From assembly GCA_001414485.1 (NCBI GenBank), contig LLEY01000046.1, positions 352,306 to 416,305 of the forward strand: a stretch of 64,000 nt of DNA, in the 5' to 3' direction. The notes below the pieces were generated by a model. The model did no database searches. It worked only from the letters and a program-made list of their open reading frames with translations, and was not told the DNA's origin. The position numbers and the translations under genes were made by a program. This document shows positions 31,067 to 62,602 of this stretch, piece by piece. The DNA comes from Calycina herbarum (Eukaryota > Ascomycota > Leotiomycetes > Helotiales > Pezizellaceae). The stretch's first letter is position 1; the number at the start of each line of letters is the position of its first letter.

Positions 31067-33348
31067 CTTGGGGGAAGTGGTAATGAGGAGTCTGTTGGGG
31101 AGGTGGTGTTGTAGTTAAAGGGGCACGAAAGGATACCCCACAATCCGATGGTTTATTTAAACTTTTGGTGAGCTTAAGGCGCAAAGAGTGAATGCGGTGG
31201 AAGACGTAGCGCAGGAATTTAGGGCTCAGCGAGAGTGGTCGAAGTGAATGCAGAAGTGTGGATTTGATGGAAGTGAAGAGGTTGGATTCGACAGGTGGTG
31301 GTGGTCTGGTCTTAGATCAAGGACACCTCTCAAAATCAATGGTTGCGCGGTCGAATCCCAAAGGGTAACTTCTCGCCTAGTGCCACCAGTGGAGAGATTA
31401 ATAGGGGCGCTTATTAAGGGACTAAGCTAGGTAAGGGACTAAGCTAGGTAAGGGACTAAGCTAGGAAGTGCTAGGGAGTGCTAGGGAGTAGGGACTGGAT
31501 ACGGGGCCGTGAGATTTGCAACCTGAACCTGGAACATCCTGATCTGAAATTTAACTGCTGCACCGGCTCGTGAGAAAGAGGCCAGCTGCACCACCGCTCA
31601 CCACGATTCTCACGCTTTTGAATTTAATTGCATGAGAGGACGACGGCCGTTTGGTTTGACGGCTACTCGAGTAGAGTGGTGTAAGGCTTTAATCTTAGTT
31701 ACCAAAACCAAACGAAAGACTACTTCATAGTACACAGTAGATGAGGTCACTTACTTGGGGGGTTCTAGATGCAGGAACCAGCCCCTATTGATTGTGATGA
31801 TATATGCGGCTCATTAGCTAGACCCGTCAATTACATTTTACGAGTGTCTTCTGATCTCTGATTTGAGGGGCTTTATTTCCTTAATTTTACGAGAGGAAAA
31901 CCTTCTTCTTTCGGTACATAGGAATAGGTACTTCACCCTCAGACCTGGTGTGTCATTTCTTGTAGTCCTTCAACCGCTTCGAAGCGGTGGGGGTTCCTCA
32001 TCTTCCTGGGAAAGATCCTTCTCCCTCTGACCACATTACCATTTCTTATTCCCAATCTCGTATTTCCCTAACATTCCACCTGCAACCTCCTAAAAGAGCA
32101 CCCAAACACGAGATCAAAAATAAGTCACCTGGTACCTCCCCAAAATATCACGAGGTGTCCAAAAAAAAAAGTGGTCTGCCAGTGGCTGTGCACTTCATCA
32201 ACGCCACAACCGCCTCGGTGGAATTTCATTTCCAGCTGGTTTCCTGAGGTGTGGACATTGGACGACGGTACTCGGTACTTAGTTCAACTGCATGCAGTAA
32301 GAACGTACCTAGAAGACCCAGATTACGTCGCTTCTTGCATACATAATAAACGGTGCTGGGTCCCTTTTTTCCCCAGGTGATCGGCCGAGGGGGTGGTAGT
32401 TTGTACGACCTAGTCACATCCTCTTAGGTATCAAGAAGTATCAAAATATCTCTGATCTCAAGAATCAAGAAATGCAACTCATTTAAAAGGGAGAAAGTCA
32501 ATATAATCGGTTGCCCATAGAATTTTTATTTTTCATCAAGTCATTTATCGTAAAAGTATCCTCCACTCCCACCTCAAAAGCCACCAATCCATTCCTTCTT
32601 CCCCCTCAATCCCAATTTTCCCCAAGCAAAAAGATAAACCAACCACCCAGTTGAGAAAAGAGAAGTCGTAAACGTCAATTCATTCAGAGAACAAAAGTTT
32701 CAAACGCTGCCACCACGCTGGCTAAATGCATGAAGGTAAAATGTGAAAAAAGGAAAGGTCTTCAAACCACCGCCCCCCAATGTCATGAAAATGGAAGAAA
32801 CAACAACACCTCTCCATGTCTTTTAAAAACTCAAGTGTTTGCAACGTAAAAAAGATGACCAGCCCCGTAAAGACAGTAAATTCAGAGTTGCCTCTGTTTC
32901 ATCAAGTGGCTGGTGCTGTATAATACCCACGCCTTGCCTCGAACAATTCTTGATATCGAAAAAAAGCGATGGGTCGTGTTGTAAGTTTGTATTTGTGTGG
33001 GAGGAAAATGGAATTCGTCCGTTCATTATAATTCGTTAAGGATTTGATTCTTCTGTCGCTCGTACTTCGTCAAAAGCAAAATAAAATTTTCTCGTGCCTC
33101 GTTGCCAGGCGGTTTTTCTTTTCTTCATTCGTTCGTTTCGTTTGATTTCGTAAAATGGGTTTGCCTTCGATTTCTTCAAAAGGAAAAGCCCTGCTCTAGA
33201 TCGGTTTCATCCAGAAAGTATGAGCAGAATTTGTGATTGGGTTTGGTGGTTGGTGATTGAAAAGAGAAGACTCTTTTGCTGCCAGAAGGAGAATTGACAG
33301 CTAATTCTTAGACTGTCGAAGAATGCGACGTCCAGGATATATAGCAGT
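31067..33348. other. Gene-free region upstream of the pyrophosphorylase gene
   Basis: 2.3 kb without a recognisable gene. The first few hundred bases are the pyrophosphorylase promoter. A 17-base tandem repeat lies at 31416-31466. 32500-33348 is probably the 3' untranslated region of the minus-strand dsRNA-binding-like gene, since it contains no competing frame. Confidence 0.45.
31416..31466 (+). repeat. 17-base tandem repeat, three copies
   Basis: AAGGGACTAAGCTAGGT three times head to tail (the last with one change at its end), followed by two shorter GTGCTAGGGA units up to about 31490. Confidence 0.85.
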
Positions 33349-46639: not shown

Positions 46640-47712
<1,073 letters not shown>

Positions 47713-55425: not shown

Positions 55426-58400
55426 TTAATTCTTTCTGGCCCATTCTCTGTACCATTCTAGACATTCGGCGTTCGCGACACTGGCACTGGTTTGAACATT
55501 TATCCCGCAGAGGATTTGTTTGACGGCGACCTCGACCCTGTATGGTCGTTAGTAAAACTCGTTTTTGTGGTCCGTACTATCCTCTTCTCAAAAGAGACGG
55601 GGGAAAGGAAAAAAGAGAATACAAAAAGAAAGATTCGAGACTCACTTCTTCCCATTCCCTGTAACCGGAATCTCAAAACAAACATCAATAACCCCCGGCA
55701 CATGTCTAGCACTCAACTCCCTCCTAACAACCCCCCTAATCTCCGCCCTCAGTTTCTCATCCAAGTTCACATCCTCACACATTTTCAAAAACAAAACAAC
55801 GACCTCATCATCATCTCCCTCTCTTCTTCGGCCGATACAAAGTCCCTCCTCCACCTTCCCCCCAAAAAACTTAAGAAGCAAATTATAAATCTCCGCACTT
55901 CCAAACCTCACACCACTAGGTTTCAGAATCCCATCCGAACGACCCAGCATGTAAATACCGCCTGTTTGGGGGTTAAAACGAACGAAATCGCCGTGGTGCC
56001 AGAGTCCAGGAAAGGTTGTGAAGTAGGAGGTGCGGTATTTTTCAGGGCCCGAGGGACCGTAGAAGGTTGTTGGTTGGGAGGGGAAGGGCTTCGTGCATAC
56101 TAGGTCACCGGGTTGGGAGGTGGTGATTATTTCTCCTGAGGGAGTGACTGCTGCGATGGCCATTCCGAGGCCTTTTTGTTGGATTTCGCCAATGTAGACG
56201 GGGGTGAGGGGGCATGGAGCGCCGAAGAGAGAGATTATGTCTGTGCCGCCTGTTATGGAGGCTGTTTGGATTTGGGAGCCGAAGGCGGTGGAGATGTATT
56301 TGAACTTAGGGTTGGAGTTAGCTTTTTGTTTTTGGACGGCTTTGCAGGGGGCCAAGGTTTCGTGAATTTGTCGAGTGAAATGAAAATTTAGGACTTGTAA
56401 CTTACTGTGCTAGGAGCAAGTGGAGAACCAGTTGAGTATATCGCTCTAAGAGAAGCAAGACTCAACCCCTCGTTCTTTGGAAAAACATTCTTCTGTTCCA
56501 AGACACTCAGATATTTGGCAGAAGTACCGAATTGCTTGATTTGCAGTTCATCGATCAATTTTGGCATTGTTAGGGGACCATGAGGATAGAAGGGACTTCC
56601 ATCGTAGAGGATTAAAGTTGCTCCACAGGAAAGACCCGAAACAAGCCAGTGCCACATCATCCATGTTGTGGTAGTGAAATAGAAGAGCCTGTCCTTAGGA
56701 AGGATATCGCCATGAAGTATATGTTCTTTCTTGTGCTGCACCAAGGTTCCTCCTGCTGAGTGGACGATACACTTTGGCTTGCCTGTAGTTCCCGAACTAT
56801 GTGCTTGTCAACCACGAGTCAAAAAATGGTTATGTGTGAAGCTTACCTATAAAGAATATAAACCGGGTGACTAGCGGGAAATCGTTCAAATTTCATTTCC
56901 TTGCTGGTAAGTCTGGCTCTCATCTTCTGATAAGCTCCAAGCAACGTGTCGTATGGCAAACTTCGTCCCGGAACAGCACGCTTGTCACCCATTGAATGGC
57001 GTTTGCAAGCGAGAGACTTAGCGCATGGTTGTCCATCCTTTAAAACGCCGCATTGTCTCTCAACATCTACTTGACCACTAAAATCGGGTTCGCTGTCAAA
57101 CAATTAGCAAATGTTGCCAAGGGGAAAGAGTGATATGCTTACCACTTGATAAAATCTTCGTAAATAAAAGCTCTACCCGCTGGAGGCTTCAGGGTGTTTA
57201 TTTGCGAGAGGATTTCGGTTCCTGGGATTGCTTCGAAAACGACAAGTGCTTTCAACTTTGGAAGTGAGGCTCCTATTTCTCTGACTTTAGTAGTTGTCTC
57301 GTGAGTTTTGCCATTGTAAAGTGAGGCGTTATCGGCGAAGAGAATCACGGGCTCGATTTGTTCTAGTCTATGTGTGGTAAGTTAGCACTGGGAAAAGAAG
57401 AAGAAAAGACAGTAAAGAGTTCTTCCAAGGATGATTAGATAATTTGGGTGGCTCGATGACTTGAGCCAGAGCAGAGACATCCAACAAAAGAGGTAAATGA
57501 TACTTACCGATCAAGCACTGCTCCAACTCCCGTGTCCGGACTGACGGCAGTCCAAATGGCACCAATAGCCGTCGCAGCAAGCATCGCAACGATAGCATTT
57601 GTATTATGACCTAAAGCACCATGAGTACCAGACAAAAATAAAAATACACTCAAGAAATCCATACCTATGAACCCAGCGACCCGATCGCCTTTCCTCACAC
57701 CTTGATGCAAGAGTGCGAAATTGCACTCAGCAACCTTTTCCCTCAATTGACTCCAAGTTACCTCAGAGCGTGTCGTTTCAGTGGCAGCTATGATGGCAAT
57801 ATCACCATCTTTGATTTCTCCTGCAGGGTGCAGGGGGTAAAGTAAATTTTCGGCAAAGTTGAGTTTGATGCCTGGGAAGAAATCTGGTCTGGGGTACATT
57901 GGAGCATTTTGAGGTAGAATCTGGGTGGGGAATTAGCGAATGATAAGTCATGAAGGTCAAATGAAACATTAGAGAAGCCTCGAACGTGAGAAGAAATAGC
58001 ATTGCGACGGAGTGGTGGTTGCCAATAGCGAATATCTCAACTGAACCTAGGGAATGCGGGGCAAATCATTCATCCTGAGCTTTGGTCTGCGTACACCCCA
58101 CCCACCACCCTCCATTGTATCGTGATTTTCGTGACAACTCACAATATTGCCCGAGAACGTTTAGAAGAATGGAGAATCAGAGTGTTTCATTCTTCTAAAC
58201 CTTCTCAGACAATTTAAGTAATTATCCTAGACTCGTATAATCAAGTAAAGGAGGTGTACTCGGAGCAAAGCTCTTGTTTCTTACCACAAGCGGAAAATAT
58301 TGATCCCTCCCAATCATGAGCAGCAAAGTAGTGGCAACAGCAAAACCAATGCAAAAAAAATTGAAGATTTCTCAAATCACCTGATCAAACAAGCTGTCCT

Positions 58401-58668
58401 TTGCTTTCGTCCTTGGAAATACATGATTCGCATCTCCGTTAGCTACCAAAGAGCCATCCAAAGCCGAAGCATGCAAACCAGTAAAGATACAAGTCTCCCT
58501 CCAGAAATCGGCAATATTTTCAATTGACCAATTATAGAGGTCTTGATAATCTCTCAGTGTAACATTGTACTTCTTCTCTACGCCGAGCTTGAAGAGCCAC
58601 ATCTGAGTGGTCTCTGGTGAGGGGTGAGTCCACAGCTCTAAAGGGAGAGTGGGAGCGGATTCTCCCAT
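55426..58668 (-). CDS. Acetoacetyl-CoA synthetase with an inserted SCA7-type zinc module
   Basis: Eight exons: 58668-58381, 57920-57665, 57610-57508, 57367-57143, 57092-56847, 56796-56406, 56304-55646 and 55537-55426, giving 759 residues, against about 670-700 usual for the family. It is an AMP-forming enzyme making acetoacetyl-CoA from acetoacetate, ATP and CoA. Seen: [24 protein letters not shown], the ATP loop SSGTTGKPK at residues 373-381, [61 protein letters not shown] and GNGKK with the catalytic Lys. Exon 5 begins normally (EPDFSG), then carries about 50 extra residues (299-348) that read as an SCA7 domain, then resumes with [14 protein letters not shown]. All junctions keep frame. The first intron is long (460 bases) and contains a hairpin. 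The other introns are 50-140 bases. Confidence 0.92.
56921..57070 (-). other. SCA7-type (Sgf73/ataxin-7) domain coding segment inside the synthetase gene
   Basis: Residues 299-348 of the synthetase. They read VDVERQCGV, then [28 protein letters not shown] and LLGAYQKM. This is the SCA7 signature: CGV-x5-PCA-x-SL-x-CK-x-HS, then KRAVPGRS and a closing AYQK. The likely zinc ligands Cys305, Cys314, Cys320 and His323 are all present. In Sgf73/ATXN7 this domain anchors the SAGA deubiquitinase module and binds nucleosomes. It has no known place in an acyl-CoA synthetase. Boundaries are sharp on both sides and no stop or shift occurs. Confidence 0.85.
58153..58206. repeat. 19-base inverted repeat within the first intron of the synthetase gene
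   Basis: 58153-58171 (GAGAACGTTTAGAAGAATG) pairs with 58188-58206 with one mismatch around a 16-base loop. Weaker pairing extends outwards for about six more bases (TTGCCC against AGACAA). RNA from either strand would fold into a strong hairpin. Confidence 0.85.
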
Positions 58669-60553
58669 TGTGTGTTGCAGATGCTAGTCAAGGGGAGGTC
58701 TTCGGTCTGGCAATGAGAGATGTCCGATAGATGTTGTGGAGTATGTTTAAGCTTAAATTGAAGACGTTGGTGAATTGGAATTTTTGGGCGGAACTAATGT
58801 GGGGGTGGGGGGTTCAGGAAGGTTGTCCCATGGGTTCCTGAATTGAAGCCTTTATCAATTACTAGAGGGAGACACTGGAGCTGTTGATGAGGCTTGAGAT
58901 AGGAAGAATCTATGTGAAAGATGGATATAGGGAATTTGAAGTTCTTGATTTGCCCTTACTTGGTCGTCGGGTGGCACTCGGGTTTCGAGCCGAGGCTGTG
59001 TGACTAAACTACCTAAAAGCCACTCTCGAATTACTCATACCTACCTTATACATCTTTTCGTTGGATTTTATCTTGGAGGTAAAGACGACGAGATAAATAG
59101 ATATATGCATTTTGGTAAACAAACAGCATTTTCCTCAACTTTTCCATGGCCGGTTGGGCGGCACTTGATGTACTAGAGTCAGGTGATGGATACTTATTCC
59201 TTGTCCTGCATGAGCTGAACCTTGTCAATATGTAGGCGCGCCTTGTCAACGGTCGATGAGCTCATTATCTGATGATATTTCACTACAACTACATTGGTTT
59301 GACACTAGATTCCTTGATATTTATGCACGGGATGTTGATTGTTTTGAAGGAGAAAAGGAGGTACTTGTAATCTGAAAATATAAAATTAGTGGTGATCTTC
59401 ACAGCTGCAGTGGGGGGTTTCAAATTGATGGGTGCGGCGAGCGTAAATTGGGCGATCGGAGCCGATGGGAATTTTTCAGATCCCGATCAGCTGGAAACCG
59501 AGAACAAAAGTCGAGACCGACTGGTGATGCCTCGATCTGCGAGTTGTAGAAACGCTCTGAGAGGGGGTTTATTGACACTTTACTTGGCTCTTCATGATAA
59601 TCGTAAGATTATCAATTAAGAGGGCCGTTTCTAGGATTGATGTTTGCAGTGCACCCAACTCGCTCAGGTCGCTTCTACCCCCTCCAAACTACCCTGGGCT
59701 CACGCAAAAGACCGGATGCTTCGGGCCAGCCACATTTCCGACTCTCCGAACCCGCTCTTCCCTCAAAGTCACTCCACCGCAATTTATAAAGAGCGCTGAC
59801 GAAGATTGTACATTAGAATTCTCTCGCCCAACGAGACCTTCTCTTTTTCTACCTCTTACCTCCTCTTCTCCCCCTCTTCTCGAAGTCCTGTATCGCTGCC
59901 GCTTCATTGCGTTGGTCGGACTTTTTCAATCAGGTCAAGTTGCAGCTGTAGCTCGTAGCTTCAATCAACTCTACTTGGAAAAGACGGCGCAACGCGTGTG
60001 GCGCCACCTCCCTTTGAAGCTTCCCGACCTCCGACTCCTGAGACCAACCCAACACCACCAAGCGCGCCTTCCCCACGACAATCGCAGACTCCAGTACCAG
60101 CCTCTTAATTCATTGTCGTAGATCAAGCAATTGCACTTCCTCGGTATGTATTCTTTCTTCTCTTTTCCCCTTTGCTCCCCTAGAAACCGCCCAAGAGGAG
60201 GCTTTGCTCTCCAGTTCCAACAAGAGCTCTAGAGCAAAGCCCGACATTCGCCCTACGAATCCGTTCATACCAATACCTCTTTCAAAACAAATCCTGTACA
60301 TCTGCGAATATAAGCCCTTTCTTTCCAATTGATCGTCCAAAACCACTGGAAAGCCCATTGCTAACAGGAGGACTTTTCTCAGGCTCAGCCACGATTTAAT
60401 TACCTACACCGCTGCGACCGCGATCATTTTCCGCGCCTCAATTGTTGCGACAGCATACGACGACATATCCTCGAGCCTATTTCCTCCTCTTTCCACCTGC
60501 TTAAAATACCAATAAGCATTCCGCTACAAAATCAAAATCAACACACTTGATCC
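58669..60553. other. Divergent promoter region of acetoacetyl-CoA synthetase and LCB2
   Basis: 1.9 kb between divergent starts. 59780-60550 is pyrimidine-rich and probably the long transcribed leader of LCB2. A plausible leader intron runs from GTATGTATTC at about 60144 to an AG near 60381. The open frame at 59594-60121 (175 codons) is Leu/Pro/Arg-rich with no recognisable feature and is probably not coding. Confidence 0.45.
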
Positions 60554-62602
60554 ATGATCAAAATGCCTCAAAGACTCCCACGAAATCCGTTTGCCAGTTC
60601 TACCACCAGCCCGGTTTCGATACCGTCAACAGACAGGCCCGTTCCTCGACGACCTTCGACATCGAAAGGAAACCGACTCGCTCAGTTTTTCTCCTCCTCG
60701 CCCAAGAGTAAAGAACAGCAGACGGCACAAGCGGCACTATTATCTGCGGTAGCAGCACAGCAACAGCACCTCCTAAACAACCCGTCACCACATATCAGTG
60801 CCCCGTCTCTGTCACTCCCCACTATCTCTCTATCAACAGCCAAAGCCGGTGAAGCAAATATGGATGAACCCCCAACCACTCTTTTCCAGCCACCTTCAGT
60901 AGCGGAGGCAAAGAGACAGACAAAAATTGATGCCCAATTCGGTCCCCTAGGAAACCAAAGTCACCGATATGTGAGCAAACACATGGGGGGAGAATTGGTG
61001 GAGCCAGTTATTGACGAGCCACCATACTATTACCTTTTGACGACGTATATCAGTTATCTCATTCTGATTGTTTTTGGGCACGTTAGAGATTTCTTCGGAA
61101 AGCGTTTCAAGGCGGAGCATTACAAACATTTGAAAGCCGCCGATGGATATGCTGCTCTGAACAACGATTTCGACAACTTCTATGTCCGAAGATTGAAGTT
61201 GCGCATCGACGATTGCTTCGCTCGCCCAATTACCGGTGTTCCTGGCCGATACATGACTTTGATGGACCGAAAGACGGATGATTTCAACGAGCACTACCAA
61301 TTCACAGGCACCTATACCGAAACCTTGAACATGAGTTCTTACAACTACCTTGGATTTGCTCAATCAGAAGGCCCATGTGCGGATGCTGTTGAAGAGACAA
61401 TTAAGAAATACGGTATTAGCTCCACAAGTCCTCGTGCCGACGCTGGAACCACCGATTTGGCCCTGGAAGTCGAAGACAGAATCGCAAAATTTGTTGGCAA
61501 GCCTTCTGCAATGGTTTTCTCCATGGGATTCAGTACAAACGCCAGCTCTTTCCCAGCCTTGGTTGGAAAGGGTTCTCTGATCATCTCCGATGAACTTAAC
61601 CACGCATCGATCCGTATTGGCGCTCGTCTTTCTGGAGCCATGATTGCCTCCTTCAAGCACAATGATATGGACGATTTGGAGAAGAAGCTTCGGGAGGTTA
61701 TTTCGCAAGGTCAACCCCGTACCCATCGACCTTGGAAGAAGATTTTGGTCGTCGTCGAAGGATTATACTCCATGGAAGGGACAATGTGCAATTTGCCCGG
61801 CCTCGTTGCTCTGAAGAAGAAGTACAAGTACAGCCTGTTTGTGGACGAAGCCCACTCAATAGGTGCACTCGGTCCCCGTGGCCGTGGTGTGTGCGACTAC
61901 TTTGATATTGATCCATCTGAAATCGATATCCTGATGGGTACGTTAACAAAATCCTTTGGTGCCAACGGAGGTTACGTAGCTGCGGAAAAGCACATTATCG
62001 ACAAACTCCGATCCACAAATGCCGCTACCATCTATGGCGAATCACCAACTCCTCCAGTCCTGATGCAAATTCTGAGTGCTCTCAAGATTATCTCCGGCGA
62101 GCTTGTTCCTGGCCAAGGTGAGGAACGTCTTCAACGTATTGCATTCAACTCTCGTTACCTTCGCTTAGGATTGAAGCGTCTTGGTTTCATCACTTATGGA
62201 CACGACGACTCACCTATCATTCCTATCGTTCTGTACAACCCTGCCAAGATGCCTGCATTCTCCCATGAAATGCTCCGACGAAAAATCGCCGTTGTCATTG
62301 TTGGATACCCCGCTACTCCTCTGATCTCCTCCCGAGCCCGTTTCTGTGTATCCGCAGCTCACAACAAAGATGACATGGATCGCTTGCTGGCAGCATGTGA
62401 TGAGATAGGCAACGTTCTTCAGCTCAAGTTCTCCACTGGTGTTGCCGGTGGAGCCGAACACCTCCCAGATGGTGTGACCCCTGAGATGGAGCACGAATGG
62501 AGACAAGCGAATGGATTACAAGGGGTTGTCAAGCCACCCCGATGGACGCTACGTGAGGTTATTGCGAATGGTGTTCAGGATGTGAAACAACCTTTACGAT
62601 GA
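60554..62602 (+). CDS. LCB2: Serine palmitoyltransferase subunit 2 (Lcb2)
   Basis: A single exon of 682 residues. The PLP-bearing subunit of serine palmitoyltransferase, the first and rate-limiting enzyme of sphingolipid synthesis, in the ER with Lcb1. Seen: a Ser/Pro/Gln-rich N-terminal extension of about 110 residues; a membrane segment near 155-172 (YLLTTYISYLILIVFGHV); LNMSSYNYLGFAQSEGPC; SPRADAGTTDLALEVE; FSMGFSTNASSFPALVGKG; DELNHASIRIGARLSGA; VVEGLYSMEGTMCNLPG; FVDEAHSIGALGPRGRGVCDYF; and the cofactor-binding GTLTKSFGANGGYV with Lys466. The C-terminal domain ends with VGYPATPLISSRARFCVSAAHNKDDMDRLL. The ATG at 60554 is followed by a second in-frame ATG three codons later with similar context. 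Confidence 0.97.
   Translation: MIKMPQRLPRNPFASSTTSPVSIPSTDRPVPRRPSTSKGNRLAQFFSSSPKSKEQQTAQAALLSAVAAQQQHLLNNPSPHISAPSLSLPTISLSTAKAGEANMDEPPTTLFQPPSVAEAKRQTKIDAQFGPLGNQSHRYVSKHMGGELVEPVIDEPPYYYLLTTYISYLILIVFGHVRDFFGKRFKAEHYKHLKAADGYAALNNDFDNFYVRRLKLRIDDCFARPITGVPGRYMTLMDRKTDDFNEHYQFTGTYTETLNMSSYNYLGFAQSEGPCADAVEETIKKYGISSTSPRADAGTTDLALEVEDRIAKFVGKPSAMVFSMGFSTNASSFPALVGKGSLIISDELNHASIRIGARLSGAMIASFKHNDMDDLEKKLREVISQGQPRTHRPWKKILVVVEGLYSMEGTMCNLPGLVALKKKYKYSLFVDEAHSIGALGPRGRGVCDYFDIDPSEIDILMGTLTKSFGANGGYVAAEKHIIDKLRSTNAATIYGESPTPPVLMQILSALKIISGELVPGQGEERLQRIAFNSRYLRLGLKRLGFITYGHDDSPIIPIVLYNPAKMPAFSHEMLRRKIAVVIVGYPATPLISSRARFCVSAAHNKDDMDRLLAACDEIGNVLQLKFSTGVAGGAEHLPDGVTPEMEHEWRQANGLQGVVKPPRWTLREVIANGVQDVKQPLR

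Follow-up and report, generated by a model that had tools for sequence, protein, structure and literature searches.

The acetoacetyl-CoA synthetase (AACS) gene of Calycina herbarum contains, in frame and within its fifth exon, a SCA7 domain that most likely stems from the SGF73 gene of the same genome. We propose that an SGF73 exon was captured by AACS and that it is now mainly a zinc-stabilised surface module, an account to which we assign as a whole a probability of about 0.6. The gene lies in the window analysed here, a stretch of 64,000 nucleotides of contig LLEY01000046.1, and its features are collected in Table 1. Within the reach of our searches, SCA7 in AACS is a domain architecture not seen before, although the process behind it is known; the literature searched yielded no joint mention of SCA7 and acetoacetyl-CoA synthetase, and no mention of PF08313.

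Table 1. Positions in the window of the AACS gene of C. herbarum and of the features in and around its SCA7 insert.
Feature	Position	Strand	Description and basis
AACS gene	55426..58668	-	8 inferred exons, 759 aa; exon joining, TIGR01217, alignment with 13 relatives
AACS exons 1-4 (inferred)	58668-58381, 57920-57665, 57610-57508, 57367-57143	-	
AACS exons 5-8 (inferred)	57092-56847, 56796-56406, 56304-55646, 55537-55426	-	exon 8 includes the stop
Exon 5 of AACS	56847..57092	-	EPDFSG, then SCA7 insert, then 19 residues
SCA7 insertion	56906..57073	-	168 nt in frame, 56 codons, Q298-T353
Zinc-ligand stretch Cys305 to His323	56996..57052	-	SCA7 motif alignment
Stretch alignable to the SGF73 SCA7 exon	56920..57071	-	gap-free; blastn, 126/152 nt identical (83%)
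Proposed cassette	56927..57070	-	144-nt GT...AG stretch; judged ordinary coding sequence inherited from SGF73

Judged from its sequence, the 759-residue protein is an acetoacetyl-CoA synthetase, for which activity with acetoacetate is predicted. It reaches 653.4 bits against NCBIfam TIGR01217, whose curated equivalog cut-off is 520.9. The Pfam search returned an AMP-binding domain, SCA7 inside it, a sub-threshold ACAS_N match and no further domains. At the place of the tryptophan wall, the second W of DTWWQT in the acetyl-CoA synthetase 1pg3 stands opposite the first G of SITGGTD in the C. herbarum protein, and glycine in place of this tryptophan is a feature of AACS (PMC9426453). With other members of the family, represented by TIGR01217, the structure 4wd1 and Kbc1 of C. 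neoformans (PMC9426453), the protein shares its full length and the conserved positions. Among 120 listed relatives, 217 columns are nearly invariant (at least 97% one residue), and 216 of these positions are kept in the C. herbarum AACS; the residue found at the single deviating column is also present in Hymenoscyphus fraxineus. If Amylocarpus serves as outgroup, the C. herbarum AACS has 25 changes on its branch and the H. fraxineus protein 28; the counts are 15 and 23 with Glarea, and 16 and 17 with Tricladium. Due to these counts and the retained invariant positions, we see no sign of decay since the insertion, and the host enzyme looks intact. The genome search detected one AACS locus. Its remaining matches, SGF73 and three places with identities of 24-30%, did not include a second, insert-free AACS.

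Elsewhere in the window, a polyubiquitin-like open frame, in which a 228-bp unit is repeated about 2.9 times and three stretches match the ubiquitin family, lies at 47020-47712 (+), and a 17-bp tandem repeat with three copies and 100% match at 31415-31465. An open frame for a class I/II aminotransferase (683 aa; 60551-62602, +) is transcribed away from the AACS gene.

The segment inside exon 5 is, by its sequence, a genuine SCA7 domain with all four ligand residues present. Pfam PF08313 matches residues 296-348 of the AACS protein with an E-value of 1.9e-21 and 76.2 bits, the cut-off being 23, and in a six-frame genome search with the SCA7 profile exon 5 scored 81.3 bits; a chance match is ruled out by these two scores. 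The family search across the whole genome (68.8 Mb, 379 contigs) yielded two SCA7 places, namely AACS exon 5 and SGF73. Residues C305, C314, C320 and H323, whose numbering in the first-pass annotation holds by count on the 759-residue protein, align with the same residues of Sgf73 proteins. We take these to be the zinc ligands of SCA7 domains, and zinc binding by the insert is predicted accordingly. The annotation's central claim, that a complete SCA7 module lies in frame in exon 5 of a real AACS, is borne out.

The domain is an insertion into an otherwise conserved protein. In an alignment with 13 relatives, C. herbarum alone has 56 extra residues, which follow EPDFSG. The best-scoring relative, P0007, a hypothetical protein of 701 aa from H. 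fraxineus, has the same residue as the C. herbarum AACS at 609 of the 701 positions aligned and keeps both flanks of the insertion point (KCVPASEG / SKEIKFERF), so that this point is clear within a few codons. Between the conserved residues corresponding to L254 and H366, the C. herbarum AACS has a stretch of 112 residues, in contrast to 34-58 in the 120 listed relatives. The module had been described as sharply bounded, under the interval of exon 5; it is indeed a bounded insertion, yet narrower than that interval (Table 1), with edges uncertain by a few codons as its last six codons no longer resemble SGF73. PF08313 was absent, according to the Pfam assignments, from all of the best 120 AACS-type proteins listed of 7999 scored, P0007 included; the relatives' AACS proteins are gene predictions. 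A protein search with the insert region (6 hits, 12 candidates) likewise gave no other AACS with SCA7. This search is of low sensitivity, having recovered 5 of the 120 listed Sgf73-type proteins (120 of 1774 found), and absence of SCA7 from AACSs other than the listed ones is therefore not proven by it. As a separate observation, the AACS-type protein P0038 of Elasticomyces elasticus (883 aa) has an extra PF08592 domain and a long N-terminal extension, and it may be a gene-model fusion.

An assembly error, a contamination or a dead gene copy could in principle also place a SCA7 sequence within an AACS gene. However, the insert is merely 83% identical to SGF73, hence SGF73 reads were not simply misplaced, and on this ground we reject mixing with SGF73 during assembly, in agreement with the earlier argument against assembly noise. 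A dead copy is opposed by the single AACS locus, the intact reading frame and the kept positions of the enzyme. We consider an origin of this kind extremely improbable.

The insert-free P0007 was modelled with 49 of the 120 listed relatives (mean pLDDT 83.1). In this model the insertion point follows G295 and lies in a coil between helix 283-288 and strand 309-315, where the local confidence is moderate with a block mean of 75. The first PDB match of the model by E-value was the AACS of Streptomyces lividans, 4wd1, with a TM of 0.71; several acetyl-CoA synthetases score higher, up to 0.79. A model of the exon 5 segment alone, built on 7 sequences, was poor (mean pLDDT 53.3), too poor to speak for the folding of the SCA7 insert, and the case for folding rests on the sequence.

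The donor family of the insert is Sgf73/ataxin-7. With these proteins the insert shares the domain (PF08313), the four zinc-ligand residues, a 12-residue core and kinship at the level of DNA, and its sequence matches in the PDB are 9ynu, 6tb4, 6t9i, 2kkr and 7ktr. Unlike in Sgf73 and ataxin-7, SCA7 here stands inside an enzyme that has no other recognisable part of Sgf73, as judged by comparing the DNA with the SGF73 locus and by Pfam. We read the second SCA7 place of the genome as SGF73 because its spliced product matches a SCA7 protein of H. fraxineus over 99% at 85% identity. Among the Sgf73-type proteins with PF08313, P0147 is named “esterase” in its source record, a name that is probably wrong.

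The genome's own SGF73, which the first-pass annotation suggested comparing with the segment, turned out to be a good candidate donor. The two loci share one stretch of 152 nt at 83% DNA identity and no further significant DNA stretch. The SCA7 exon of SGF73 lies on the reverse strand at 1661-1488 of the SGF73 locus; it measures 174 nt, is divisible by three and has introns on both sides, these limits being derived from splice signals and other Sgf73s rather than from transcripts. An exon of this form is suited to shuffling. The insert, with 168 nt, begins at or near the start of this exon, and its right (3') edge is blurred, since the last six codons have diverged and permit no confident alignment. 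At 42 codons both copies encode the same residue, and 28 of these codons match in all their letters, while 16.6 would be expected from the codon usage of the gene. The motif KDGQP in the insert is common to the Sgf73 proteins of C. herbarum, H. fraxineus, Glarea lozoyensis and Amylocarpus, whereas those of Venustampulla, Tricladium and Lachnellula have KDGVP. This pattern hints at a donor in the neighbourhood of the C. herbarum lineage; many other Sgf73s, with the longer form LPNGQP, likewise have Q here. The insert reads VLKDGQP and the Sgf73s of C. herbarum and H. fraxineus read VMKDGQP, a difference that requires either a single change or a donor of greater age. On the sequence, SGF73 of the own genome is the most likely donor, and a transfer from the SGF73 of a close relative is a possible but less likely alternative.

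Exon shuffling, or in-frame insertion of a domain from another gene of the same genome, is a known process. The present case resembles it in that a putatively intron-flanked exon has a counterpart of closely matching length in frame in another gene. It differs in that the insert became part of a host exon, and a comparison of the AACS and SGF73 loci revealed no donor intron sequence next to it. The sequence is compatible with copying from DNA as well as with copying through RNA.

The SCA7 segment might also be an intron-like cassette that is always or sometimes removed, or a later acceptor, CTTACCAG, might cause it to be skipped. The first-pass annotation had proposed such a cassette with a GTAGAT donor at 57070 and a TATCAG acceptor ending at 56927. 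The letters and the length of 144 nt are correct, GT...AG ends thus exist, and both options keep the frame, with FIKCKEMKF resulting from the later acceptor, which lies where the insert ends. However, the letters of GTAGAT and TATCAG stand unaltered in the coding sequence of the SGF73 exon, and inside the cassette there is no CTRAY branch motif, which is present in 5 of the 7 inferred introns of the AACS gene. Both introns flanking exon 5 are of the GT-AG type; the one at 57142-57093 (intron 4) has a CTAAT motif 15 nt before its end and the one at 56846-56797 has none. For the later acceptor CTTACCAG, in contrast to the native one of intron 4, the only such motif lies 204 nt upstream. Splice signals alone are not decisive, as 2 of the 7 AACS introns also lack CTRAY, and GTGATT, a donor of the AACS gene itself, is as far from the donor consensus as GTAGAT is. 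The low dN relative to dS described below further argues for translation of the segment. A splice cassette is unlikely on these grounds, and we attach very little probability to removal of the segment in any of these forms. Due to the SGF73 origin of the proposed sites and the missing inner CTRAY, constitutive inclusion of the SCA7 segment is expected.

Between the insert and the SGF73 exon, dN is 0.10-0.11 and dS is 0.56-0.79 (three methods, 51 codons), and 42 of 51 compared residues are unchanged. With this dS, the copy is not recent. If the silent changes are divided equally between both copies, the insert's branch would comprise about 0.28-0.40 per site. We simulated neutral change starting from the present SGF73 exon (kappa 2, 4000 runs for each distance) and counted the runs that ended with at most 8 changes in 50 residues and without a stop. 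None of the 4000 runs for each distance did so at 0.28, 0.33 or 0.40 substitutions per site; the share was 0.1% at 0.20, 3% at 0.15, 21% at 0.10 and 69% at 0.05. These simulations leave two options, namely constraint on the protein sequence of the insert or a branch of the insert that makes up much less than half of the distance. Provided that both copies kept the same clock, the insert appears to be constrained as protein. Selection for mere folding inside the enzyme would be enough to explain this constraint.

The insert differs from Sgf73 at four positions that are fixed or nearly fixed there. R, T and S (each 118/118) and A (117/118) are replaced by K, A, R and D; these counts refer to 118 of 121 proteins, P0141, P0150 and P0230 being left out as they did not fit the residue pattern, and this pattern allowed no residues other than R/K at the first of the four positions and S/T at the third. 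Contact of some of these positions with SAGA is conjectural. The change of four near-fixed positions favours a tolerated or repurposed zinc loop. A zinc-stabilised surface loop and a chimera with a link to chromatin had both been offered in the earlier reading. The former fits best, with the loop and the zinc themselves predicted, whereas for the latter the intact SCA7 domain speaks in favour and the four changed positions speak against it.

A repurposed module might bind a partner outside chromatin or sense zinc or redox state, and thus regulate the enzyme after losing its role in SAGA. The low dN relative to dS together with the substitutions at near-constant positions of Sgf73s would agree with such a role; however, selection for folding alone explains the pattern equally well, and we regard this possibility as rather unlikely.

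According to another explanation, the SCA7 domain would dock AACS to SAGA or to nucleosomes, where the enzyme would supply acetoacetyl-CoA to Gcn5 for histone acetoacetylation. The derivation of the domain from a SAGA subunit and the 42 unchanged residues speak for it. SCA7 has been termed a previously reported nucleosome-binding domain (PMC8080568), about 100 central residues of Sgf73 are buried in the SAGA core (PMC10226619), and Sgf73 connects the deubiquitinase module to SAGA, a complex of which Gcn5 is also a part (PMC8080568, PMC10226619). AACS is reported to play a key part in regulating histone acetoacetylation in human cells and to raise this mark in HEK293T cells, with GCN5, p300 and PCAF as writers (PMC13175576). 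Overexpression of GCN5 also raised histone acetoacetylation in a study whose main subject was HBO1 (PMC10477889). A fusion of AACS with part of Sgf73 would therefore make sense given the presence of Gcn5 in SAGA; binding, nuclear location and the mark are all hypothetical. Against this explanation stand the four changed positions and the finding that AACS overexpression did not raise the acetoacetylation mark in HepG2 cells (PMC13175576), and the main text of PMC13175576 and of PMC10477889 does not contain the word “yeast”. Docking of the enzyme to chromatin is in our view unlikely, and direct delivery of acetoacetyl-CoA to the Gcn5 of SAGA on chromatin by an AACS with the captured Sgf73 exon is quite improbable.

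We therefore return to capture of the exon followed by its use as a surface module. The SCA7 exon of SGF73, most likely the own one, would have been copied in frame into a surface loop of AACS that precedes the ATP loop, either after the split from H. fraxineus or earlier with subsequent loss in H. fraxineus. As this loop varies in length among the relatives, the enzyme probably tolerated the insert and would still be active. The segment is presumably translated constitutively and may fold as a zinc-held knob while the AMP-forming core is unchanged. Purifying selection would keep the insert foldable, and residues that are near-invariant in Sgf73s would have drifted. The insert would thus no longer work as a part of SAGA but mainly as a surface module stabilised by zinc, and it perhaps offers a new face for docking or regulation.

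In conclusion, the AACS of C. herbarum is a rather clean case of a metabolic enzyme that received one exon's worth of sequence in frame. With the likely donor and the host in one genome, the steps of domain capture are open to testing. Loss of the AACS gene in C. neoformans caused no growth defect on standard media (PMC9426453), so that fungal AACS may tolerate such experiments. If the SCA7 domain still docks to SAGA or nucleosomes, the protein would offer a natural test of on-site acyl-CoA production for Gcn5, and if it indeed tethers the enzyme to chromatin, it would be a natural fusion linking ketone-body metabolism to histone acetoacetylation.
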